Virus record (IMG/VR): IMGVR_UViG_3300020735_000007
Span: 1 to 64,000 of that record
Direction: 5' to 3' (one strand)
Length of the DNA: 64,000 bases
Source of the DNA: a virus
Shown here: positions 429-48,682 of the stretch, piece by piece
Layout of the letters: every line of letters begins with the position of its first letter
Position numbering within the stretch: the first letter of the stretch is position 1
The notes under the pieces: generated by a model
The model's database searches: none
What the model was told of the DNA's origin: nothing
What the model saw: the letters and a program-made list of their open reading frames with translations, nothing else
Position numbers and translations under genes: made by a program

Positions 429-3020
429 TTAGCGAAATTCAATTGACTCTAGCCACCATTCAGGTAGTATATCATTACAGGTTTTCAAAAACATATTAAA
501 ATCCTGATCTATAATATAGCTCCTGGCATAGTCTTCCTTAGAACGGATGGAACGACCTAAACCCTGAATGAGAGTAAGGGCTGTTGTCCAAGAATACCAC
601 GCTTTATCTAACTCCATTCTTCTTTTTACATAAGGGTCTGCCAAGTTATTGAAAGGCATTTTCGCTACCACCTGAAACCTGGATAGATCCCCACGAAGGT
701 CCAAACCTTCGGTCATAGAGGGGCTGAGAAGCACCGTAGGCTCTGTTGAGGTCAAGTGCCTATCCACTGCATAGGCGCGAGATTGGGAGTCATGTGCGAC
801 CAATCTGGAGTAATGAGGACTTCTCCTTAAACCCTGTTGAATATGATTCATCAACTTGAACGATTGGCAATGAATAATTCCCTTTTCATTCTTATGCTTC
901 TCCAAAATACGCTCAATCTTGTTGAGGAGCTTGGGTAGAGTGGTGTCATAATTTTTGTAAGACATAGAGCCAGCGGGGGTGAAAATGATTTTCCTGTTAT
1001 CTTGAGCAAATTCTGAAGGCAGACTCATGTAGCCACAATCCTTGACTGAAATTCCTAGATTGCGAACAAAAGTGCGAGGGTCCAGAATGGTAGCAGACAT
1101 GAACATGATTTTTTCAGCCCGACTAAAAAGAAGTTCCTCAGAGAAAACATCCCCACGAAGCGGCTTGATACCCAAACCGTCAGTCTGATGAATAAACCAC
1201 ATCTCTGACTCTGATTCTAGAAATTTACCAAGGTTACTCTTGAAAGAGGAGAGATTCATTTCCTTCTTAAGCAAAGCCATCAAACTTCCATGTCCTTGTA
1301 GAGCCGCAGCGATTTCTTCCTTTAACTTAATTCCATAAATGTCAGCGGCTTGAATAACTGTATGCTCTACCCAATATTTAGTTTCAGGAATAGTAGTAAG
1401 TGGTTTAGTGGGAAGTTTAATATCAAATTCTTCTAGACGATTAGCTGAAATACCAATTTCAGAAAAAGCGATCAAAACATTTTCAGTATTATGCGCTTCA
1501 TCAATAATTATGAGCTTACGCTTCGGTAGTTGCCGCTTGAACATTGAGTCTGTAAGATAATAGGCAAAATTAGTAATACCCCTGGGAGAAGCCATAAAAG
1601 CTGCCTTGGCACTTCTGTAAGGGCAATGTTCACAGATAGTTCCAGCCAGTTTATTCATAACACTGCCGATTTCACAGTTAGATTCCTGCTCCCCACATCG
1701 GTAGTTAGAGGCACCACGAAGATCAGCTAGACCAATACTTCCAAATTCAGACGCATATTGATCCTGTAGAATCTTTTGAGAAGTGAGGATCGTTCCTCCA
1801 GGTTTCAAGGGGGGTTCAACAGGACAATCCGCAGCCCACCCTAAAGCTGCAATAGAAAGACCGGAATTGTGAACTACTGTAAAATCCCCCAAAAGAAATA
1901 AGTGGTCCCCATCAACACCAAAACCATAATAATCCCCTAGTCCAACAGGTTCCACTTTAAAACCAGTAACAAGCACACTCTTTTTTTGCTGTCTCATTTT
2001 TGCTTGTTTTCTTGGGAGGAGAGTTGGGATCAAATGGATATCCCCACTTATATTCCCGCGATAGTAAACCCCCCCATTTCCTGTTTGACAAGTTTTATGG
2101 CAAGGTTTAACATACACACTGAACCCAAGAGAACGGGCTATAAATGAAATATCATCTGCTAAATTTTTATTAACTGATGAAAATTCAAATGTATTAGAGG
2201 CTAAACTCCCATCAGCATCTAAATAACCTGCGAGTAACTTAAGTCTGGAAATTCTAGATGCGGTTTTGAAAGACAAAGGGATGGACTTGTTAGAAGAAAT
2301 ATCTAGTTTCTTTAATTCGTTTAATAAAATATTTCTATCTTTTCTACCTCCCATAGCCTGTGTAGTTATATTCCAAGAAGTAGCCTTAGATCCATTGTTA
2401 TATGCAGTCAAACTAAGGCCAAAATTTGAAGCTAGATTGCTTAAATAGGTTTGAATTTCTTTATCCGCAGTAGTAACTTCAGTCAACCTTTTTGAAGAAC
2501 CATCCCCCAACCATAATCCAATATAATAAGCAAGTTCTTTTAAATCGTGTGTTAATACACTCTCAAAATCTACGCCAGTTCGATAAAGTTTAGCATGATG
2601 CTTAAAATTGTTGCTTCTAGCCAAATAATCCGACAAAGTTAGGTTAATAATTTGTTTATGGTTTTCGGTCATTTTTACAGAAAGAATGTGGGAGGAATTG
2701 ACTACAAAAGAGTCGCCTTTCACTGGAGTCACCCTAAATAATTCATCTCTGCCTTGAGATAAACTGATCACCTTACGAGGAGTGGAGTCAGGCCCCATTA
2801 CAAGCTCTCCTTCCTTAATTTCTTCTACAGGTTTGATTACCCCATCAAACATAAGGATGGGAGTGCCTTTTGCGAAACACTTTCCAATACCAGTAGGTAG
2901 TTCAAAAATAGAAAACTTCTTACCCTTCTCTTCATCCACTACAAATTTTTCCAGAGCTTTTTCCTGAGATGGTCGAATCTCAGGAAAAGGGAAATGTGAT
3001 TTCAACTGTGCCAAATCCAC
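429..3020 (-). CDS. DinG/XPD-type superfamily 2 helicase, interrupted by an intein
   Basis: ATP-dependent DNA helicase of the Rad3/XPD/DinG group, expected to act in replication or repair. The Walker A loop PTGIGK|S is split by a 338-residue intein after residue 47. The C-terminal extein carries four cysteines in the iron-sulphur arrangement of this family (YRCGEQ, NCEIG, ICEHCP), a DEAH box (IIIDEAHN) and motif VI (QGLGRSIRS). Without the intein the protein is about 525 residues. The start is GTG, directly after the TAA of the upstream gene, with GGAG 6 bases before it. The helicase works only if the intein splices out, because the nucleotide-binding lysine and serine are otherwise separated. 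Confidence 0.93.
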   Translation of the reverse strand: MDLAQLKSHFPFPEIRPSQEKALEKFVVDEEKGKKFSIFELPTGIGKCFAKGTPILMFDGVIKPVEEIKEGELVMGPDSTPRKVISLSQGRDELFRVTPVKGDSFVVNSSHILSVKMTENHKQIINLTLSDYLARSNNFKHHAKLYRTGVDFESVLTHDLKELAYYIGLWLGDGSSKRLTEVTTADKEIQTYLSNLASNFGLSLTAYNNGSKATSWNITTQAMGGRKDRNILLNELKKLDISSNKSIPLSFKTASRISRLKLLAGYLDADGSLASNTFEFSSVNKNLADDISFIARSLGFSVYVKPCHKTCQTGNGGVYYRGNISGDIHLIPTLLPRKQAKMRQQKKSVLVTGFKVEPVGLGDYYGFGVDGDHLFLLGDFTVVHNSGLSIAALGWAADCPVEPPLKPGGTILTSQKILQDQYASEFGSIGLADLRGASNYRCGEQESNCEIGSVMNKLAGTICEHCPYRSAKAAFMASPRGITNFAYYLTDSMFKRQLPKRKLIIIDEAHNTENVLIAFSEIGISANRLEEFDIKLPTKPLTTIPETKYWVEHTVIQAADIYGIKLKEEIAAALQGHGSLMALLKKEMNLSSFKSNLGKFLESESEMWFIHQTDGLGIKPLRGDVFSEELLFSRAEKIMFMSATILDPRTFVRNLGISVKDCGYMSLPSEFAQDNRKIIFTPAGSMSYKNYDTTLPKLLNKIERILEKHKNEKGIIHCQSFKLMNHIQQGLRRSPHYSRLVAHDSQSRAYAVDRHLTSTEPTVLLSPSMTEGLDLRGDLSRFQVVAKMPFNNLADPYVKRRMELDKAWYSWTTALTLIQGLGRSIRSKEDYARSYIIDQDFNMFLKTCNDILPEWWLESIEFR
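1866..2879 (-). mobile_element. Intein with LAGLIDADG homing endonuclease, inserted in the helicase P-loop
   Basis: Residues 48-385 of the helicase ORF. The intein begins at Cys48 (CFAKGTPILMFDG, splicing block A), has a block B NSSHILSV with its histidine, two LAGLIDADG-type helices (LAYYIGLWLGDG and LLAGYLDADGS) and ends DFTVVHN, with Ser386 as the +1 nucleophile. All residues needed for self-splicing are visible, and both endonuclease motifs keep an acidic residue, so it looks active. The site is the Walker A loop GIGK|S, a conserved insertion point that inteins favour. Confidence 0.93.
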
Positions 3021-4508: not shown

Positions 4509-4922
4509 CTACACCTTGAAAAAACCTGCCGGAACGTCAATCCTTTCCTTCATCTTCTTCACGGCTTCCAGAGGAACACCATGGGTATTACGAGCGGCAC
4601 AAGTTTCAGCATCCACATCAAACACCTTCAACCAAACCTCGTAACCTACCTTATTCGCCAAATCTACATATGGCTTGCGTTCCCATTCGCGGGTGTTGGT
4701 GTTTGAAATATAAACTTTCAAACCCTTAGATATGGCCTCTCGGGCTTCTTCCTGAGAAAATTCATGGGCTTTGTCAAGTTCACGAGGATTAAATTGGTAA
4801 GCTCCAGATTTTTCAAAGAAATGATCCGCACTGGCCTCTATAAATCCTTGGGGCTTCAAGTAATTAATAAAGAAGTGAGATTTCCCACAGCCTGATGGTC
4901 CAACGGCAATTATCATCTGCAT
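4509..4922 (-). CDS. P-loop kinase-like NTPase, 137 aa
   Basis: A Walker A motif GPSGCGKS at residues 8-15 follows a hydrophobic strand. The size and the absence of long insertions resemble the polynucleotide kinase/zeta-toxin-like P-loop kinases common in large phages. The start at 4922 has AGGAG 6 bases upstream; a longer reading extends into the divergent homing endonuclease gene and is not credible. Substrate unknown. Confidence 0.75.
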   Translation of the reverse strand: MQMIIAVGPSGCGKSHFFINYLKPQGFIEASADHFFEKSGAYQFNPRELDKAHEFSQEEAREAISKGLKVYISNTNTREWERKPYVDLANKVGYEVWLKVFDVDAETCAARNTHGVPLEAVKKMKERIDVPAGFFKV

Positions 4923-4944
4923 GGCTACTCCTAGGGGGTGAAGA

Positions 4945-42205: not shown

Positions 42206-42598
42206 TTAATCTCCAGGTTCATTCGGTTTTCTTGAGTCAAAAGCTTTCTTTTCAATAACAGATCTCTGATCGGGGTGAAGGGTGAGAGTTATACAATCAG
42301 CTACAACGTTTGGGTTATATTGCTTAAATGAGCCACCGTGGCCGATTCGGAGGTGGCACTCTAATGTAGACATACAAAGAGTTATAAGATTATGAGGATC
42401 AAGTTCCAAAGCTGGATCAGAGTGGAAAGGCTGCTGATGATGAACTTGAAGTCGGTCCTTTCCCCCACACGCTGCACAAAATGGTTGAGACTCAAGATGT
42501 TCTTTCTCGACTTTCGGCCATTCAGGACTTCTTGTTACCTTTTTTACTAATTTTTCCCTAAAAACACTATAAACTACATTAATTATATGACTCAACAT
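42206..42598 (-). CDS. HNH endonuclease, 130 aa
   Basis: CAACGGKDRLQVHHQQPFH, LELDPHNLITLC and CHLRIGHGG form the HNH core with zinc cysteines. The type is common in phages, either as a mobile nuclease or as a packaging-associated HNH. The start at 42598 follows GGAGGG; a TTG four codons upstream overlaps that site and is rejected. Confidence 0.8.
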   Translation of the reverse strand: MLSHIINVVYSVFREKLVKKVTRSPEWPKVEKEHLESQPFCAACGGKDRLQVHHQQPFHSDPALELDPHNLITLCMSTLECHLRIGHGGSFKQYNPNVVADCITLTLHPDQRSVIEKKAFDSRKPNEPGD

Positions 42599-42634
42599 TT
42601 TTCCCTCCAATAAAAGGAGAGAAAAGTTGTATAC

Positions 42635-44880: not shown

Positions 44881-45000
44881 GTTTGCGGGTTTAGATAAGC
44901 TAGCTAGACTTTCTAATTTTGCCGGGATGGAGAGGGTGCTTCCCTCTTGGCCCACACGTTACGACTGTCTCTGTTCATTTCTGAGTTAAGACCCGCAAAT
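44881..45000. ncRNA. Structured non-coding element, about 120 nt
   Basis: Closed by an 11-bp stem TTTGCGGGTTT / AGACCCGCAAA (44882-44892 with 44989-44999, one wobble). Inside is AGAGGG-TGCTT-CCCTCT (44931-44947). No coding frame with a start and ribosome-binding site. It lies between two minus-strand genes and immediately before a GTATTAA element. The long closing stem suggests a discrete folded RNA. Confidence 0.5.
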
Positions 45001-45004
45001 TTGT

Positions 45005-45199
45005 TTATTTTTTACTAAAAATATACAAGAATAAAAGAAGAATGCTGCAAAGAGAACCTATCGTAGTTAAGATTCCCCATAATTTCATAGCTCTACGCAC
45101 ACGAATAGCTTCTTTAGCAGCAAACGTGATTCTTTTTTCAAACTCTAAGTGAGCTTTTGCTATCATTTTTTCTTCGACTGACCTTCTTATCTGAGTCAT
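45005..45199 (-). CDS. Small membrane protein, 64 aa
   Basis: A charged N-terminal helix (about 38 residues) is followed by a single C-terminal transmembrane segment (WGILTTIGSLCSILLLFLYI) and a KK end. AGAGG lies 10 bases before the ATG. Function unknown. Confidence 0.6.
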   Translation of the reverse strand: MTQIRRSVEEKMIAKAHLEFEKRITFAAKEAIRVRRAMKLWGILTTIGSLCSILLLFLYIFSKK

Positions 45200-45247
45200 T
45201 TTAAAGTGACCTCTACTAGTAGATCAGAAGTCGAAAATATCAAAAAT

Positions 45248-45332
45248 TGGTGGATGAGGGTGGACTTGAACCACCGACCTTCTAAGATGAACTCAATCAC
45301 CACTAGATGCTCTTTCTCTGAGCTACTCACCC
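45248..45332 (-). tRNA. Atypical tRNA with a 10-nt expansion of the anticodon arm
   Basis: Acceptor GGGTGAG/CTCATCC, D stem GCTC/GAGC, anticodon stem TCTAG/TTAGA, variable AGGTC, T arm GGTGG-TTCAAGT-CCACC and an encoded CCA are all normal. The space between the two anticodon-stem strands is 17 nt instead of 7 and can extend the arm by a GGTGA/TCATC stem with a TTGAGT loop. The anticodon cannot be assigned; GTG (His) is one reading if the extra 10 nt are removed. Confidence 0.7.
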
Positions 45333-45339
45333 TTGAAAT

Positions 45340-45457
45340 TGGTGCCCGAAGCGGGAGTCGAACCCGCAAACCATGGATTTTGGGTGTGACTACCTCCATC
45401 CACCTACATTAGAGGAGTCGATAAGTCCATTGCATATGCCAATTCTGCTATTCGGGC
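45340..45457 (-). tRNA. tRNA with a 41-nt insertion in the anticodon loop, probably Leu-type
   Basis: Acceptor GCCCGAA/TTCGGGC, a Leu-like D arm (AATTGGCATA), anticodon stem ATGGA/TCCAT, T arm GCGGG-TTCGACT-CCCGC and an encoded CCA are intact. The anticodon loop spans 48 nt (45378-45425), beginning CTTA and ending AAAA. Exact removal of 41 nt could leave CTTAAAA, the loop of tRNA-Leu(TAA). The insert folds into GACT-CCTC/GAGG-T-AGTC. The variable loop is only 5 nt, short for Leu. Confidence 0.7.
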
Positions 45458-45509
45458 GTTGTAAAAGAAAAGGTAAACAAACTTTCCAATGTAATATGGA
45501 GGGTTTACC

Positions 45510-46205
45510 ATGAAAATAAGAAGCTATACAGAAGAACAATTTAAAGAAGTTGTAGCAAACTCATTAAGTATCCGTCAAGTGCTGCTAACTTTAAATTTAG
45601 CAGGAAGCGGGGGAGCTTACTTAGGATTCAAAAGAGCCGTGGAAGAGTGGAATGTGGATACCTCTCATTTCACTGGTCAACTTTGGAGCAAGGGAAGAAA
45701 ATTTGAACCAAAAAGAGATATTCAAGACTATTTATCTAATAAATTCACCATTCAATCGTTTAAACTAAAAAATAGATTGTTCCAGGAAGGTATATTTAGA
45801 AGAGAGTGTTCTGTTTGTAACCTTACAGAATGGAACGGAGAAGAGGCCCCCCTTGAATTAGATCATATAGATGGCAACCCTCAGAATAATCTTATTTCTA
45901 ATCTCAGAATTATTTGCCCTAACTGTCATGCTCAAACTGTGAATCATGCTGGAAGAAATAAACGTAAGACACCAAAAATGATAAAAATGACAAAAGAGCA
46001 AAAGGTGCATAAAGTGTGTGTCTGTGGAAAAATTATTAGCCCAAGAGCTAATAATTGCGTTTTGTGTTCAAGAGCAACTTCCCCAAAAATTCAATGGCCC
46101 TCAAAAGAAGAGATATTGAATAAACTAAAAATTTCTAACTTCACAGCATTAGCCAAAGAGCTTGGGGTGTCTGATAATGCTATCAGAAAATACTTGAAAA
46201 GATGA
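45510..46205 (+). CDS. HNH homing endonuclease, 231 aa, inside the tRNA cluster
   Basis: CSVCNLTEWNGEEAPLELDH and NLRIICPNCHAQT form the HNH/zinc core. A second Cys pair (CVCGK ... CVLC) and a C-terminal helix-turn-helix (FTALAKELGVSDNAIRKYL) would bind DNA. It is on the plus strand, between two minus-strand tRNA genes, with GGAGGG before the ATG. The orientation and the HTH tail are typical of mobile free-standing HNH genes. Confidence 0.85.
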   Translation: MKIRSYTEEQFKEVVANSLSIRQVLLTLNLAGSGGAYLGFKRAVEEWNVDTSHFTGQLWSKGRKFEPKRDIQDYLSNKFTIQSFKLKNRLFQEGIFRRECSVCNLTEWNGEEAPLELDHIDGNPQNNLISNLRIICPNCHAQTVNHAGRNKRKTPKMIKMTKEQKVHKVCVCGKIISPRANNCVLCSRATSPKIQWPSKEEILNKLKISNFTALAKELGVSDNAIRKYLKR

Positions 46206-46209
46206 TTGT

Positions 46210-46300
46210 TGGTAGCCCCACCCGGAATCGAACCGGGACGCTACTGTTATTTCGCATTGGAATTTGAAGCCAACGTGTCTACCAATTTCACCATGGGGCC
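46210..46300 (-). tRNA. tRNA-Leu (anticodon CAA)
   Basis: Acceptor GGCCCCA/TGGGGCT (first pair G-T), loop TTCAAAT giving anticodon CAA, a long class II variable arm (about 18 nt), T arm TCCCGG-TTCGATT-CCGGG and an encoded CCA. Stem pair 31-39 is a mismatch. Confidence 0.88.
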
Positions 46301-46373
46301 ATAAGCCAGCTTTTTAGCAGGAAGCTGGAAACTGTTCACCATTAACGTGTTCCAACCCCTTCATTATAACAGT

Positions 46374-46523
46374 CTAGTAAGACTTGGGGTGGTATCTTGG
46401 TAGAAATGGAGCTGCTGAGAATCGGATATACCGATTGGGAGAATGCACAATGCCTTTTATCATGTTTTCACAGCATTCATCCCACTGAGGCGATGCAGAT
46501 ACAAATCCTTCAGGATTCAACAA
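46374..46523 (-). CDS. Possible small protein, 49 aa, weak start
   Basis: An open frame with protein-like composition (PEGFVSASPQWDECCENM ... FSAAPFLPRYHPKSY) between tRNA-Leu and tRNA-Gln. Only TTG codons at 46523 and 46520 are available as starts, and no good ribosome-binding site is seen; the frame continues into the tRNA-Gln 3' end. Could be a decayed gene or chance. A CCAGCTT/AAGCTGG hairpin lies downstream near 46305-46327. Confidence 0.35.
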   Translation of the reverse strand: MLNPEGFVSASPQWDECCENMIKGIVHSPNRYIRFSAAPFLPRYHPKSY

Positions 46524-46537
46524 CTCAGCGACATTGA

Positions 46538-46611
46538 TGGTTAGGGCGACAGGACTTGAACCTGTAAGGGAACCTTCAAAGGGTTCTGGTTTACCATTAG
46601 CCTACACCCCA
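46538..46611 (-). tRNA. tRNA-Gln (anticodon TTG)
   Basis: Acceptor TGGGGTG/CGCCCTA, beginning with U as in other tRNA-Gln, anticodon stem GAACC/GGTTC with loop CTTTGAA, T arm ACAGG-TTCAAGT-CCTGT and an encoded CCA. Normal class I length. It begins 6 bases after the stop of the small gene upstream. Confidence 0.9.
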
Positions 46612-46617
46612 CTTGTG

Positions 46618-46755
46618 TTACTTCCTGCTAGCCCCCCTTCTCTGCAACTCAAAACGAGCCGCAGCGTGAAGAAGAGAGCCACTACTGATGACCGACTGCA
46701 ACTGCTCATCGGACATCTTTTGCACAGACTTGCTGTGCTTTGCTGATTGGGCCAT
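46618..46755 (-). CDS. Small basic protein, 45 aa, behind a leader peptide and hairpin
   Basis: Reads MAQSAKHSKSVQKMSDEQ and ends RRGASRK; helical, basic, serine-rich. GGAGG lies 6 bases before the ATG, but that site is inside a 10-bp hairpin (46761-46786) preceded by a five-codon ORF, so translation looks conditional. Just downstream is tRNA-Gln. Function unknown. Confidence 0.65.
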   Translation of the reverse strand: MAQSAKHSKSVQKMSDEQLQSVISSGSLLHAAARFELQRRGASRK

Positions 46756-46760
46756 AAGGC

Positions 46761-46786
46761 ACCTCCAAACGTTAAGCGTTGGAGGT
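46761..46786 (-). promoter_or_regulatory. Hairpin sequestering the ribosome-binding site of the 45-aa gene
   Basis: Minus strand: ACCTCCA-ACG, loop CTTAA, CGT-T-TGGAGGT, i.e. 10 bp with one bulged T. The 3' arm contains GGAGG, the only ribosome-binding site of the 46618-46755 gene. Confidence 0.7.
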
Positions 46787-46789
46787 TAT

Positions 46790-46807
46790 TCAGGTGAAAC
46801 GACTCAT
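46790..46807 (-). CDS. Leader peptide ORF, MSRFT
   Basis: ATG-AGT-CGT-TTC-ACC-TGA with AGGAG 7 bases upstream, ending 3 bases before the hairpin that covers the next gene's ribosome-binding site. A ribosome on it would cover or disturb the hairpin. The arrangement is that of translational attenuators such as erm leaders. Confidence 0.5.
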   Translation of the reverse strand: MSRFT

Positions 46808-46825
46808 GTATTGCTCCTATGTGTG

Positions 46826-46838
46826 TTAATACCCAATT
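46826..46838 (-). promoter_or_regulatory. Recurring GGGTATTAA leader element
   Basis: Minus-strand AATTGGGTATTAA, 19 bases before the leader-peptide start. One base different from the 39037 and 42158 copies. Confidence 0.35.
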
Positions 46839-46849
46839 TTTAGAAAAAT

Positions 46850-47519
46850 AAACGTAGCGGAAAGATTTGTCTTGGGTTTCTCTGTTATGGGCTTCATGTA
46901 ATCACGGTCCCCCATTTTCTCCGTCCCAAGTATCCGTTACGATTACCCATTCAACTTCTTTGCATCAATCAGCTTGGTTCTGGATTGTTAGTTCCCTATC
47001 GTTTCAGGAACAAGTAGCCGTTTTCTCCAGCTTACCGTGAATGGGACCAGTAAGAAACGTGTTAGTCGGATGGTGAGTTCTCGTTTGAGTCTTGTTGACC
47101 TCTCCCCCACTGTCATTTTGCTCATTTCAGCCTCTCAACTGAAACATCCGACCTTAGATTTTTTTGGGTGGTTGCCGATCTATCAACTTCCTTTCTCATC
47201 GCCAGCCCTTACGAGTTATGGCACCCTGATTTACATCCCTGGTCTTCATGCCTGTCCAGGGTGAGTCTTGGATTTTGCAGCGTAGTTCCTGTGACCGGGA
47301 GCTTACAACGTGCCTCCCTCAGTGTAGCACCAAGATACTTTTTGGAGTTTTACGAGTTGCTCCAGGTGGCTTTGCGAAGGCTCCTGACTAGCTAGCGGCT
47401 AGGTCGCAAACCTGCTCATTTGCTATCGCGCTAGTTCTCGTCCAGTTTCACAAAAGCAAGCCATTGACCTTTACAACATGGCGTTATTCCCGACAAAAGG
47501 GAGGTCTGTTGTTTCTCCT
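46850..47519 (-). ncRNA. Candidate giant structured non-coding RNA, about 670 nt
   Basis: No credible gene on either strand, yet many complementary pairs: GTCGGATG/CATCCGAC (47065-47072 with 47145-47152), TTTCAG/CTGAAA (47125-47130 with 47139-47144), CCCTGG/CCAGGG (47237-47242 with 47256-47261), GCAAA/TTTGC (47406-47410 with 47419-47423), CTTGGG/CCCAAG (46871-46876 with 46925-46930) and TCACGGT/ACCGTGA (46902-46908 with 47034-47040). The last two cross, so a pseudoknot is possible. Size, phage context and tRNA neighbours recall GOLLD and ROOL RNAs. Minus strand is assumed from the flanking tRNAs and the promoter at 48689. Confidence 0.5.
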
Positions 47520-48092
47520 TCACTTTTTGCTTTTGTGCTGCTGTGTACTGGAAAATGCTGCTGGGTCACTATCTCTAGCAACGATCTCTTCAAGAACTTT
47601 CTGAACTCTAATCATTTTAAGATTCTTTTGTTTATTATTTTCATGCCTACCTCTCCAAGTTGGAGTTTGACTATGGCAGTTTGGGCACAGACCCTCAAGA
47701 TTTTCTCTTGAATCATCATTGTTGTTCCCATTTTTATGATCTACTTCTAGAGTAATTGGAAGGCCAAACCAAGAATCAATCTTACATCTATTACATTTCA
47801 ACTCTTGTTCAACAATAACTCTGGCTCTTTTAGAATCCCAAGCCAAGTCTTCAAACTTTTTGGAAAACAGGTAATCAAATCTGGTGGTTCTCTTTTCTCT
47901 CATTTTATCTAGTTTATCTTTTAGTCTTACAAGTTCCTCTTCAGTTAAAGAAGCATGAAACTCTTTATTTTTTAATGATTTGAGTTTTTTACTCTCTTCA
48001 CTAAAATTTTGAGAATTTCTACATTTTAAGCTACAGAAGCTCTTTAGCCCTTTTCCTGGAGTGAACTCTGCCCCACATTTTTTACATTGCAT
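47520..48092 (-). CDS. HNH homing endonuclease, 190 aa
   Basis: The N-terminus has a zinc ribbon (CKKCGAEFTPGKG ... CSLKC). The HNH core is CNRCKIDSWFGLPITLEVDH, then LCPNCHSQT. GAGG lies 5 bases before the ATG. It sits inside the RNA cluster, between two tRNA genes and the large non-coding region, on the same strand. Like the plus-strand HNH at 45510 it is probably a mobile gene that targets the cluster. Confidence 0.85.
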   Translation of the reverse strand: MQCKKCGAEFTPGKGLKSFCSLKCRNSQNFSEESKKLKSLKNKEFHASLTEEELVRLKDKLDKMREKRTTRFDYLFSKKFEDLAWDSKRARVIVEQELKCNRCKIDSWFGLPITLEVDHKNGNNNDDSRENLEGLCPNCHSQTPTWRGRHENNKQKNLKMIRVQKVLEEIVARDSDPAAFSSTQQHKSKK

Positions 48093-48144
48093 ACGAACCT
48101 CATTAATTATGAATCAGAAAGTCTAGAAGTTCGATTCCTTATTT

Positions 48145-48247
48145 TGGTACGCCCACCTGGATTTGAACCAAGACACTCCGCACATCTAGCGGCTACCTTT
48201 CGGTGGTTGGGTATAGGCCAACTGTTCTACCATTAAACTATAGGCGC
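48145..48247 (-). tRNA. Atypical tRNA with a 33-nt variable region
   Basis: Acceptor GCGCCTA/TGGGCGT, D arm GTTTAATGGTAGAAC, stem GTTGG/CCAAC with loop CCTATAC, T arm CTTGG-TTCAAAT-CCAGG and an encoded CCA. Between anticodon and T arms are 33 nt forming two hairpins, ACC-GAAA-GGT and CCGC-TAGATGT-GCGG. Position 33 would be C, not U, if the loop is read as drawn (anticodon TAT), so the identity is uncertain. Confidence 0.65.
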
Positions 48248-48253
48248 ATTGAA

Positions 48254-48339
48254 TGGTCCTCCCCACGGGAGTTGAACCCGCTATTCCTTACGGAAGGTGA
48301 CTTAAAAGGCCACTGCCATCACCGTGTGGCAAAGGGAGG
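48254..48339 (-). tRNA. tRNA with Lys-type anticodon TTT and a class II-like variable arm
   Basis: Acceptor CCTCCCT/GGGGAGG, D arm GCCA-CACGGTGA-TGGC, anticodon stem GTGGC/GTCAC with loop CTTTTAA, variable region of 15 nt containing TTCC-GTAA-GGAA, T arm GCGGG-TTCAACT-CCCGT, and an encoded CCA. Lys tRNAs normally have a 5-nt variable loop, so this is about 10 nt too long. Only 6 bases separate it from the next tRNA. Confidence 0.75.
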
Positions 48340-48344
48340 GAGGA

Positions 48345-48682
48345 ATCTTACTGGACAGGCCCTATGTCTGCATAACTTTTGGCATCCGGTCTACCGAATG
48401 AACCATACCCTGTTGCTTACAGGAATCAGTAAGAGTTAAAAATTCACCGTCATGTGCTGATATCCACTAGCTCCACTTATGCACCTACTTCAACCGGGAA
48501 GGTCGAGCAGTCTGGAGTTACGGTTGGGTGGACTAATTAGTGAATGCTAGAGAACGCGACTCTCTTTAGCTAGACGCAAAACATCAGCGATTTAGGTGCG
48601 AATTAGCGCACCAAGCAAAATTTATTACACTTATCATATAATGTTGTCAAGGAATGAGTGCTGCACCCTGATGCTGCCCTCT
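48345..48682 (-). ncRNA. Structured leader RNA of the tRNA cluster
   Basis: Between the promoter at 48689 and the first tRNA there are about 340 nt with no gene. Clear hairpins: GGTGCG-CTAATT-CGCACC (48595-48612), CATTCGG-TAGA-CCGGATG (48383-48400) and GCTA..AGAGA/TCTCT..AGC (48546-48570). It may be a separate structured RNA or the 5' part of a larger one split by tRNAs and the HNH gene. Confidence 0.45.

Follow-up and report, generated by a model that had tools for sequence, protein, structure and literature searches.

A transfer RNA (tRNA) gene for Leu(UAA) in a 64,000-nucleotide (nt) stretch of viral DNA, positions 1 to 64,000 of IMG/VR record IMGVR_UViG_3300020735_000007 (hereafter the window), carries a 41-nt insertion in its anticodon loop. 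Judged by comparison with other viral contigs, this gene is one of a set of jumbo-phage tRNAs with small putative introns between positions 34 and 35 or 35 and 36. We consider it somewhat probable that the gene yields a precursor tRNA-Leu(UAA) from which a structured mini-intron would be excised, and that the two halves would then be joined, likely by a phage ligase of the Rnl1 type. This reading rests on sequence data of several kinds, namely the insertion itself, intact counterparts, 18 recurrences, compensatory evolution in one insert family and the presence of a ligase.

An interrupted tRNA-Leu gene and its insert

The gene lies on the minus strand and runs from position 45457 (5′ end) to 45340 (3′ CCA). 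The acceptor stem (GCCCGAA/TTCGGGC, 7/7), T stem (GCGGG/CCCGC, 5/5) and anticodon stem (ATGGA/TCCAT, 5/5) are fully paired, and A73 and CCA are encoded. The anticodon loop comprises 48 nt (45378-45425), in agreement with the coordinates of a first-pass annotation made from the letters of the window, and taking out 41 nt leaves CTTAAAA, a Leu(UAA) loop with U33 and A37. The annotation had proposed this restored loop, and it was borne out by ARAGORN, which, when introns are allowed, identifies the locus as Leu (taa) bearing an insert of 41 nt. The gene was detected neither by ARAGORN with default settings nor by Rfam at gathering score; tRNA counts of jumbo phages obtained with default settings can thus miss genes. 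As a chance control, ARAGORN was run on forward and reversed sequences of 36 sources (738,039 bases). On the forward sequences it made 21 intron-only calls, repeats counted where records overlap, besides 442 ordinary tRNAs, and on the reversed ones 0 of either kind. Our own cloverleaf finder, used as a second detector on 38 sources, returned 410 candidates, among which 17, or 15 after removal of repeats, were long-looped with a perfect closing stem, while its reversed control returned 2 candidates and 0 long-looped ones.

Several comparisons support an insertion into an otherwise intact tRNA, as the first-pass annotation had supposed: an uninterrupted homologue of one half of the gene, a 41-nt insert in the tRNA-Asn of a related phage, and recurrence in other jumbo phages. 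The 5′ half of the window tRNA is identical over 27/27 nt (E 1e-9, among the loci compared) to an uninterrupted tRNA-Leu(TAA) with the loop CTTAAAA on the 250-kb contig of another phage. The major head protein of the window shares 70.3% identity with that of Tunturiibacter phage Tunturi_5 and places the window near this phage, which has an intact Leu(UAA) tRNA. Because the variable loop of this intact tRNA is equally short, the short variable loop of the window tRNA, described earlier as unusual for Leu, is no sign of decay. When positions 44900-48500 were compared with 50,697 phage records by blastn in distant mode, an HNH gene in two Erwinia phages was matched and nothing else.

The best predicted fold of the insert is a hairpin of 10 base pairs (bp) with a 1-nt bulge (Table 1); the bulge had been foreseen, whereas the stem is longer than the 8 bp first described. 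Two cut readings are possible, CTT^..^AAAA and CTTA^..^AAA. The closest relative of the insert was found in G007, a 313-kb contig of the window's lineage (head protein 79%), whose tRNA-Asn carries a 41-nt insert with the same AUC start, AUGUWGGUGGAU loop and 6-nt tail. Given that the spacing is common to both inserts, CUU^AUC...CCC^AAAA is favoured for the window, and its anticodon is most likely interrupted at U34^A35. The alignment of the two inserts scores 11, which was reached by 2/20,000 and 1/20,000 shuffles, a figure somewhat weakened because this was the best of 15 inserts compared; the 14 others score −10 to −3. When viral contigs were scanned for the loop motif that the window insert and G007 have in common, 61 stretches were obtained, among which the window's virus and G007 alone had tRNAs. 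In the 59.7 kb fetched of G007, 48 tRNAs were called for 19 amino acids, an intact gene being lacking for Asn alone, and the interrupted tRNA-Asn was the sole tRNA-Asn detected.

Interrupted tRNAs in other jumbo phages

We found 18 distinct interrupted phage tRNAs, split between positions 34 and 35 or 35 and 36, and for all 18 inserts the spliced reading leaves a normal loop. They comprise 12 Asn (loci L117, L249, L263, L276, L321, L347, L355, L360, L374, L384, L341 and L014), 2 Lys (L400, L407), 1 Thr (L402) and 3 Leu tRNAs (the window, L407 and L014); L384 stops at a contig end, with its T arm and acceptor out of view. Left out as repeats were L323, whose insert is that of L249, L154, which lies at the place of L117, and L140 and L133, which repeat L014 and L123 respectively. 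Also set aside were the archaeal-looking L015 (Leu, Met, Ser), the 11-nt calls in L371 and L402:14225, the calls of 77 nt in L412:4745 and 45 nt in L415:6169, neither of which could be resolved, the long loops given by the cloverleaf finder in L110:17075 and L136:5823, and second-arm or complex tRNAs in L112, L115, L116, L121, L123, L125, L126, L128, L131 and L142.

Scanning viral contigs for a tRNA-Asn split at U35/U36 yielded 119 stretches, nine distinct ones being interrupted tRNAs, and a second scan yielded 24 stretches with two additional interrupted tRNAs, one of them ending at a contig edge. Of the 18 stretches of viral contigs that fit the interrupted-Leu pattern, 13 yielded no tRNA call; the others were the window's virus (twice), L014, L015 and L025, the last an ordinary tRNA. 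The same pattern fitted 36 stretches among 84,980 prokaryote genomes, of which 32 yielded no tRNA call and four held interrupted tRNAs, all archaeal; no bacterial interrupted tRNA was recovered from these genomes with this narrow pattern. Acceptor and T stems were free of mismatches in 14/15 interrupted tRNAs, as were anticodon stems (14/15). In 6/8 records with fetched tRNA clusters, the fetched pieces showed no intact Asn tRNA.

Seven of the Asn inserts, 45-47 nt long, have one common fold: a single nucleotide is followed by a 6-bp stem, a linker resembling AAAGGU, a 5-bp hairpin whose T-loop reads UUCGANU, and finally a tail of 5 nt. In their alignment, changes on both sides occur in 10/11 pairs and 96.1% of cells pair, a value that 0/500 shuffles reach, while slid versions pair at 23-46%. 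Because these compensatory changes are unmatched by shuffles, the seven inserts are, on the strength of this alignment, a selected RNA structure, and one that resembles the top half of a tRNA inside a tRNA. In our putative numbering, 12 layers separate their predicted 5′ splice site from the T-loop, and their 3′ site would fall at position 76 of the mini-tRNA. No tRNA-like element or T-loop was found inside the window insert, though these seven contain one.

L347 is Agrobacterium phage Atu_ph07 (2,001/2,001 bases), a cultured phage with interrupted Asn, Lys and Thr tRNAs (Table 1). The paper on this phage names Asn and Thr as the two amino acids without a tRNA (PMC6102473). No intact Asn or Thr tRNA was called in the 139 kb fetched of the 490-kb genome, and the interrupted genes offer a reason why Atu_ph07 seemed short of these tRNAs; an intact His tRNA is encoded. 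Given three examples in a phage with a laboratory host, the question of splicing is directly testable.

In bacteria, self-splicing ribozymes are the sole known means of splicing tRNA introns. A 2019 study described tRNA introns in the uncultured Lak megaphages as unseen before in phages, called them enigmatic, and said of a Thr intron that it encodes a possible tRNA (Devoto et al., PMC6784885). In the literature searched, to the extent that it was available, this was the sole paper found on phage tRNA introns, and no explanation of them was found; the word "intron" is absent from the main texts of PMC7162821, PMC5852040, PMC6102473 and PMC11924767. In our reading of Prevotella phage Lak-A1, the nested acceptor stems of both inserts (Table 1) stop one nucleotide short of the 3′ exon, and ARAGORN calls an intact Asn tRNA in this phage too. 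With the present comparison, the class reported from Lak phages takes in further jumbo phages and tRNAs for four amino acids, and part of it is linked to tRNA mimicry.

Table 1. Positions of interrupted tRNAs and of genes for candidate RNA-repair proteins; locations refer to the window unless a record or phage is named.
Feature	Location	Strand	Remarks
5′ exon of interrupted tRNA-Leu(UAA)	45423..45457	-	35 nt, ends CTT (U34)
Insert (putative mini-intron)	45382..45422	-	41 nt, CTT^..^AAAA reading; CTTA^..^AAA reading: 45381-45421
3′ exon	45340..45381	-	AAAA, anticodon 3′ strand, short variable loop, T arm, acceptor, CCA
Insert hairpin, GACUCCUCUA / UGGAGG-U-AGUC	45388..45419	-	predicted fold; 11-nt apical loop AUGUAGGUGGA, common to the G007 insert
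Polynucleotide-kinase-like protein	4509..4934	-	141 aa, AAA_33, PHROG 505, no phosphatase domain
Rnl1-type ligase	record G001 125995-126603 (L204:1846-2961)		outside the window
Interrupted Asn	Atu_ph07 323905-324023	-	
Interrupted Lys	Atu_ph07 68156-68280	-	
Interrupted Thr	Atu_ph07 335105-335213	-	weaker: one mismatch in anticodon stem, one in T stem
Interrupted Asn	Lak-A1 L424:16004-16168	-	93 nt, CUGU^UAA, nested tRNA-like element; our reading
Interrupted Thr	Lak-A1 L424:8338-8524	-	114 nt, nested tRNA-like element; our reading

Candidate splicing machinery and competing explanations

G001, a record that agrees with the window at all of the 9,738 bases compared, encodes a homologue of T4 Rnl1 (PF09511, E 2e-22; PDB 2c5u, E 7e-7; PHROG 562), with further PDB matches to 9do4 and 5tt6, and the kinase-like protein of the window is a possible RNA-repair partner for it. 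A ligase of the T4-Rnl1 type was present in 9/9 intron phages with records >100 kb versus 5/13 other large tRNA-bearing records (Fisher p = 0.004), while RtcB was found in 0/9 of these intron phages. This count sets aside G000, the window's own 100.9-kb and ligase-free record, as the same virus as G001, and omits G010 and G011, neither searched for ligase, as well as records <100 kb. G028, G032 and G034, the records behind L249, L321 and L355, have a short Rnl1 frame of 205-215 aa that covers positions 1-156 or 1-160 of the 227 in the profile, and the ligase gene is perhaps split.

Under the splicing reading, the transcript would be a tRNA-Leu(UAA) precursor interrupted in its anticodon by the structured mini-intron, and some nuclease would cut the insert out. 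The perfect anticodon stem would keep the two tRNA halves together after cutting, until they are sealed, most likely by the virus's own ligase, to give the CUUAAAA loop. Because the splice sites of the mini-tRNA and Lak-A1 inserts fall at would-be tRNA ends, RNase P and other tRNA-end enzymes are candidate cutters. RNase P measures a 12-layer register from the T-loop, and nucleases acting on tRNA ends leave a 3′-OH and a 5′-phosphate, which Rnl1 can join directly. It is conceivable, if rather doubtful, that jumbo phages have an additional mode of tRNA splicing, in which host enzymes that process tRNA ends free tRNA-imitating introns and a phage ligase seals the exons; the window insert would then be a derived member, freed in a different way. 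RNase P itself was rejected as the enzyme releasing the window insert, which has no T-loop element. The splicing reading presumes that the window insert behaves like the other phage inserts.

A number of observations weigh against splicing of the window tRNA. Shuffled sequences fold as stably as the window hairpin (z +0.25; 110/200 shuffles equally stable), and for this reason the hairpin is weak evidence when taken alone. Covariation is uncountable for its family, which has two members, the window and G007. Intact tRNA-Asn genes stand alongside the interrupted one in G028 and G030. Rnl1 is common, with 1583/50,697 phage records matching the Atu_ph07 ligase, and Pfam models find neither Rnl1 nor RtcB in two Lak genomes, whose addition weakens the ligase association to p = 0.04, or to p = 0.07 if G000 is added as well; all these p values disregard kinship, and the 13 comparison records were screened non-exhaustively for introns. 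Finally, the splicing endonuclease PF01974 was found in 0/11 phage records (possibly fragments, with the host outside the search).

The same hairpin statistics, together with an adjoining tRNA-like gene (45248-45332) without a usable anticodon loop, would suit a dead pseudo-tRNA, in which a random insertion destroyed the gene and no splicing takes place. We regard this as unlikely, given that the acceptor, anticodon and T stems of the window tRNA are perfect, that without the insert the loop is a normal one with U33 and A37, that a similar insert occurs in the G007 tRNA-Asn, and that the structure of related inserts is kept by compensatory change. Less probable again is a retained insert, which would make the product a non-decoding tRNA-like RNA, which might serve in regulation or as a decoy for the host's anticodon nucleases. 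Phages of the Tunturi lineage do have tRNA-like genes in which the anticodon arm is extended and lacks an anticodon loop, and RNA-repair genes directed against anticodon nucleases are common in huge phages, according to PMC7824862. This explanation is at odds with the normal loop obtained for 18/18 inserts and with the interrupted Asn tRNA being the sole Asn tRNA found in G007 and in what was fetched of five further records.

An archaeal-type bulge-helix-bulge intron, cut by splicing endonuclease, seems very improbable for the window, which has 1, 1, 1 and 0 of 4 central pairs at four cut sites, while four archaeal controls have 3-4 of 4 at 37/38. Of the other phage inserts tested, 10/17 have 3 or 4 of 4 central pairs at 37/38, which speaks partly against our interpretation of the class, and the excluded L015 looks archaeal. 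Yet a 37/38 cut in the Asn class mostly gives a His anticodon (GUG), and Atu_ph07 already has its intact His tRNA; this cut was rejected for the Asn class on these grounds and on the U1-A72 and G73 ends, which are those of bacterial tRNA-Asn. The PF01974 result in the 11 records, possibly fragments, may also speak against such an intron, as does the interrupted-Leu pattern in prokaryotes, which matched four archaea and no bacterium. Least credible of all is a remnant of a group I intron, or another RNA that cuts itself, at the site classical for introns of Leu(UAA). The tRNA and the site U34^A35 match those of the known group I intron. Nonetheless, 41 nt is far below core size, in agreement with the earlier remark that the insert lacks the size of a group I or II intron, no Rfam intron match was obtained up to E 5, and the related inserts have no such core. 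As a whole, the comparisons made here suggest that these phages splice tRNAs in some yet-unexplained way.

Neighbouring features and relation to known systems

The tRNA-like gene next to the interrupted tRNA-Leu (45248-45332, minus strand) resembles L117:11553-11632, L123:7231-7317 and L126:5025-5111, all of which have an anticodon arm drawn out into one extended hairpin that offers no usable anticodon loop, and a D loop without GG; bodies like that of the window gene recur in several jumbo phages. Another group of tRNAs has a long variable region with two hairpins, the second resembling another anticodon arm: window 48148-48247 (minus strand), which is Ile(UAU)-like and has a counterpart in G007, L116:6158-6254, and L115:4309-4412 and L131:16398-16498, both with CUA in the first arm. 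Further tRNAs with a CUA anticodon, labelled Pyl by ARAGORN, occur in the clusters of G005, G006, G008, G012 and G013, and a tRNA-Lys(UUU) at window 48254-48339 (minus strand) has a 15-nt variable arm, unusual for Lys. Between the tRNA-Gln and an HNH gene of the window lie about 900 nt (46612-47519) with no convincing gene, which align with L116:4840-4955 over 122 columns at 74.6% identity. The fold of 46751-47519 is no better than shuffles (z −0.8), and a large known RNA at 46760-47520 was rejected for want of an Rfam match. Three HNH endonuclease genes are located near the tRNA cluster (45510-46205, plus strand; 47520-48092 and 42206-42610, minus strand), and a helicase gene at 429-3020 (minus strand) contains an apparent intein with a LAGLIDADG domain.

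Among known systems, the Lak tRNA introns are similar in being small anticodon-loop inserts of jumbo-phage tRNAs whose removal restores a 7-nt loop, an uninterrupted homologue existing for the window case. However, the Lak-A1 inserts are longer (93 and 114 nt) and contain a fuller nested tRNA, whereas the window insert has no T-loop element, and Lak-A1 and Lak-A2 are without Rnl1 and RtcB by Pfam. Archaeal bulge-helix-bulge introns are likewise short, interrupt the anticodon loop of tRNAs that are good in other respects, and are removed by proteins, as proposed for the window insert, but the phage sites lie between positions 34 and 35 or 35 and 36 rather than at 37/38, the window lacks the motif, and no splicing endonuclease was found in the 11 phage records searched. 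The group I intron of tRNA-Leu(UAA) shares the tRNA and what we take to be the same site, U34^A35, with the window case, while differing in its hundreds of nucleotides and ribozyme core from a 41-nt insert without an Rfam match. In T4, Pnkp and Rnl1 mend anticodon-loop cuts made by a host nuclease, and the window's virus has both an Rnl1 homologue and a small polynucleotide-kinase-like protein, although the latter is without a phosphatase domain. The T4 substrate is a tRNA cut by the host nuclease, whereas the substrate proposed here would be an intron-bearing precursor.
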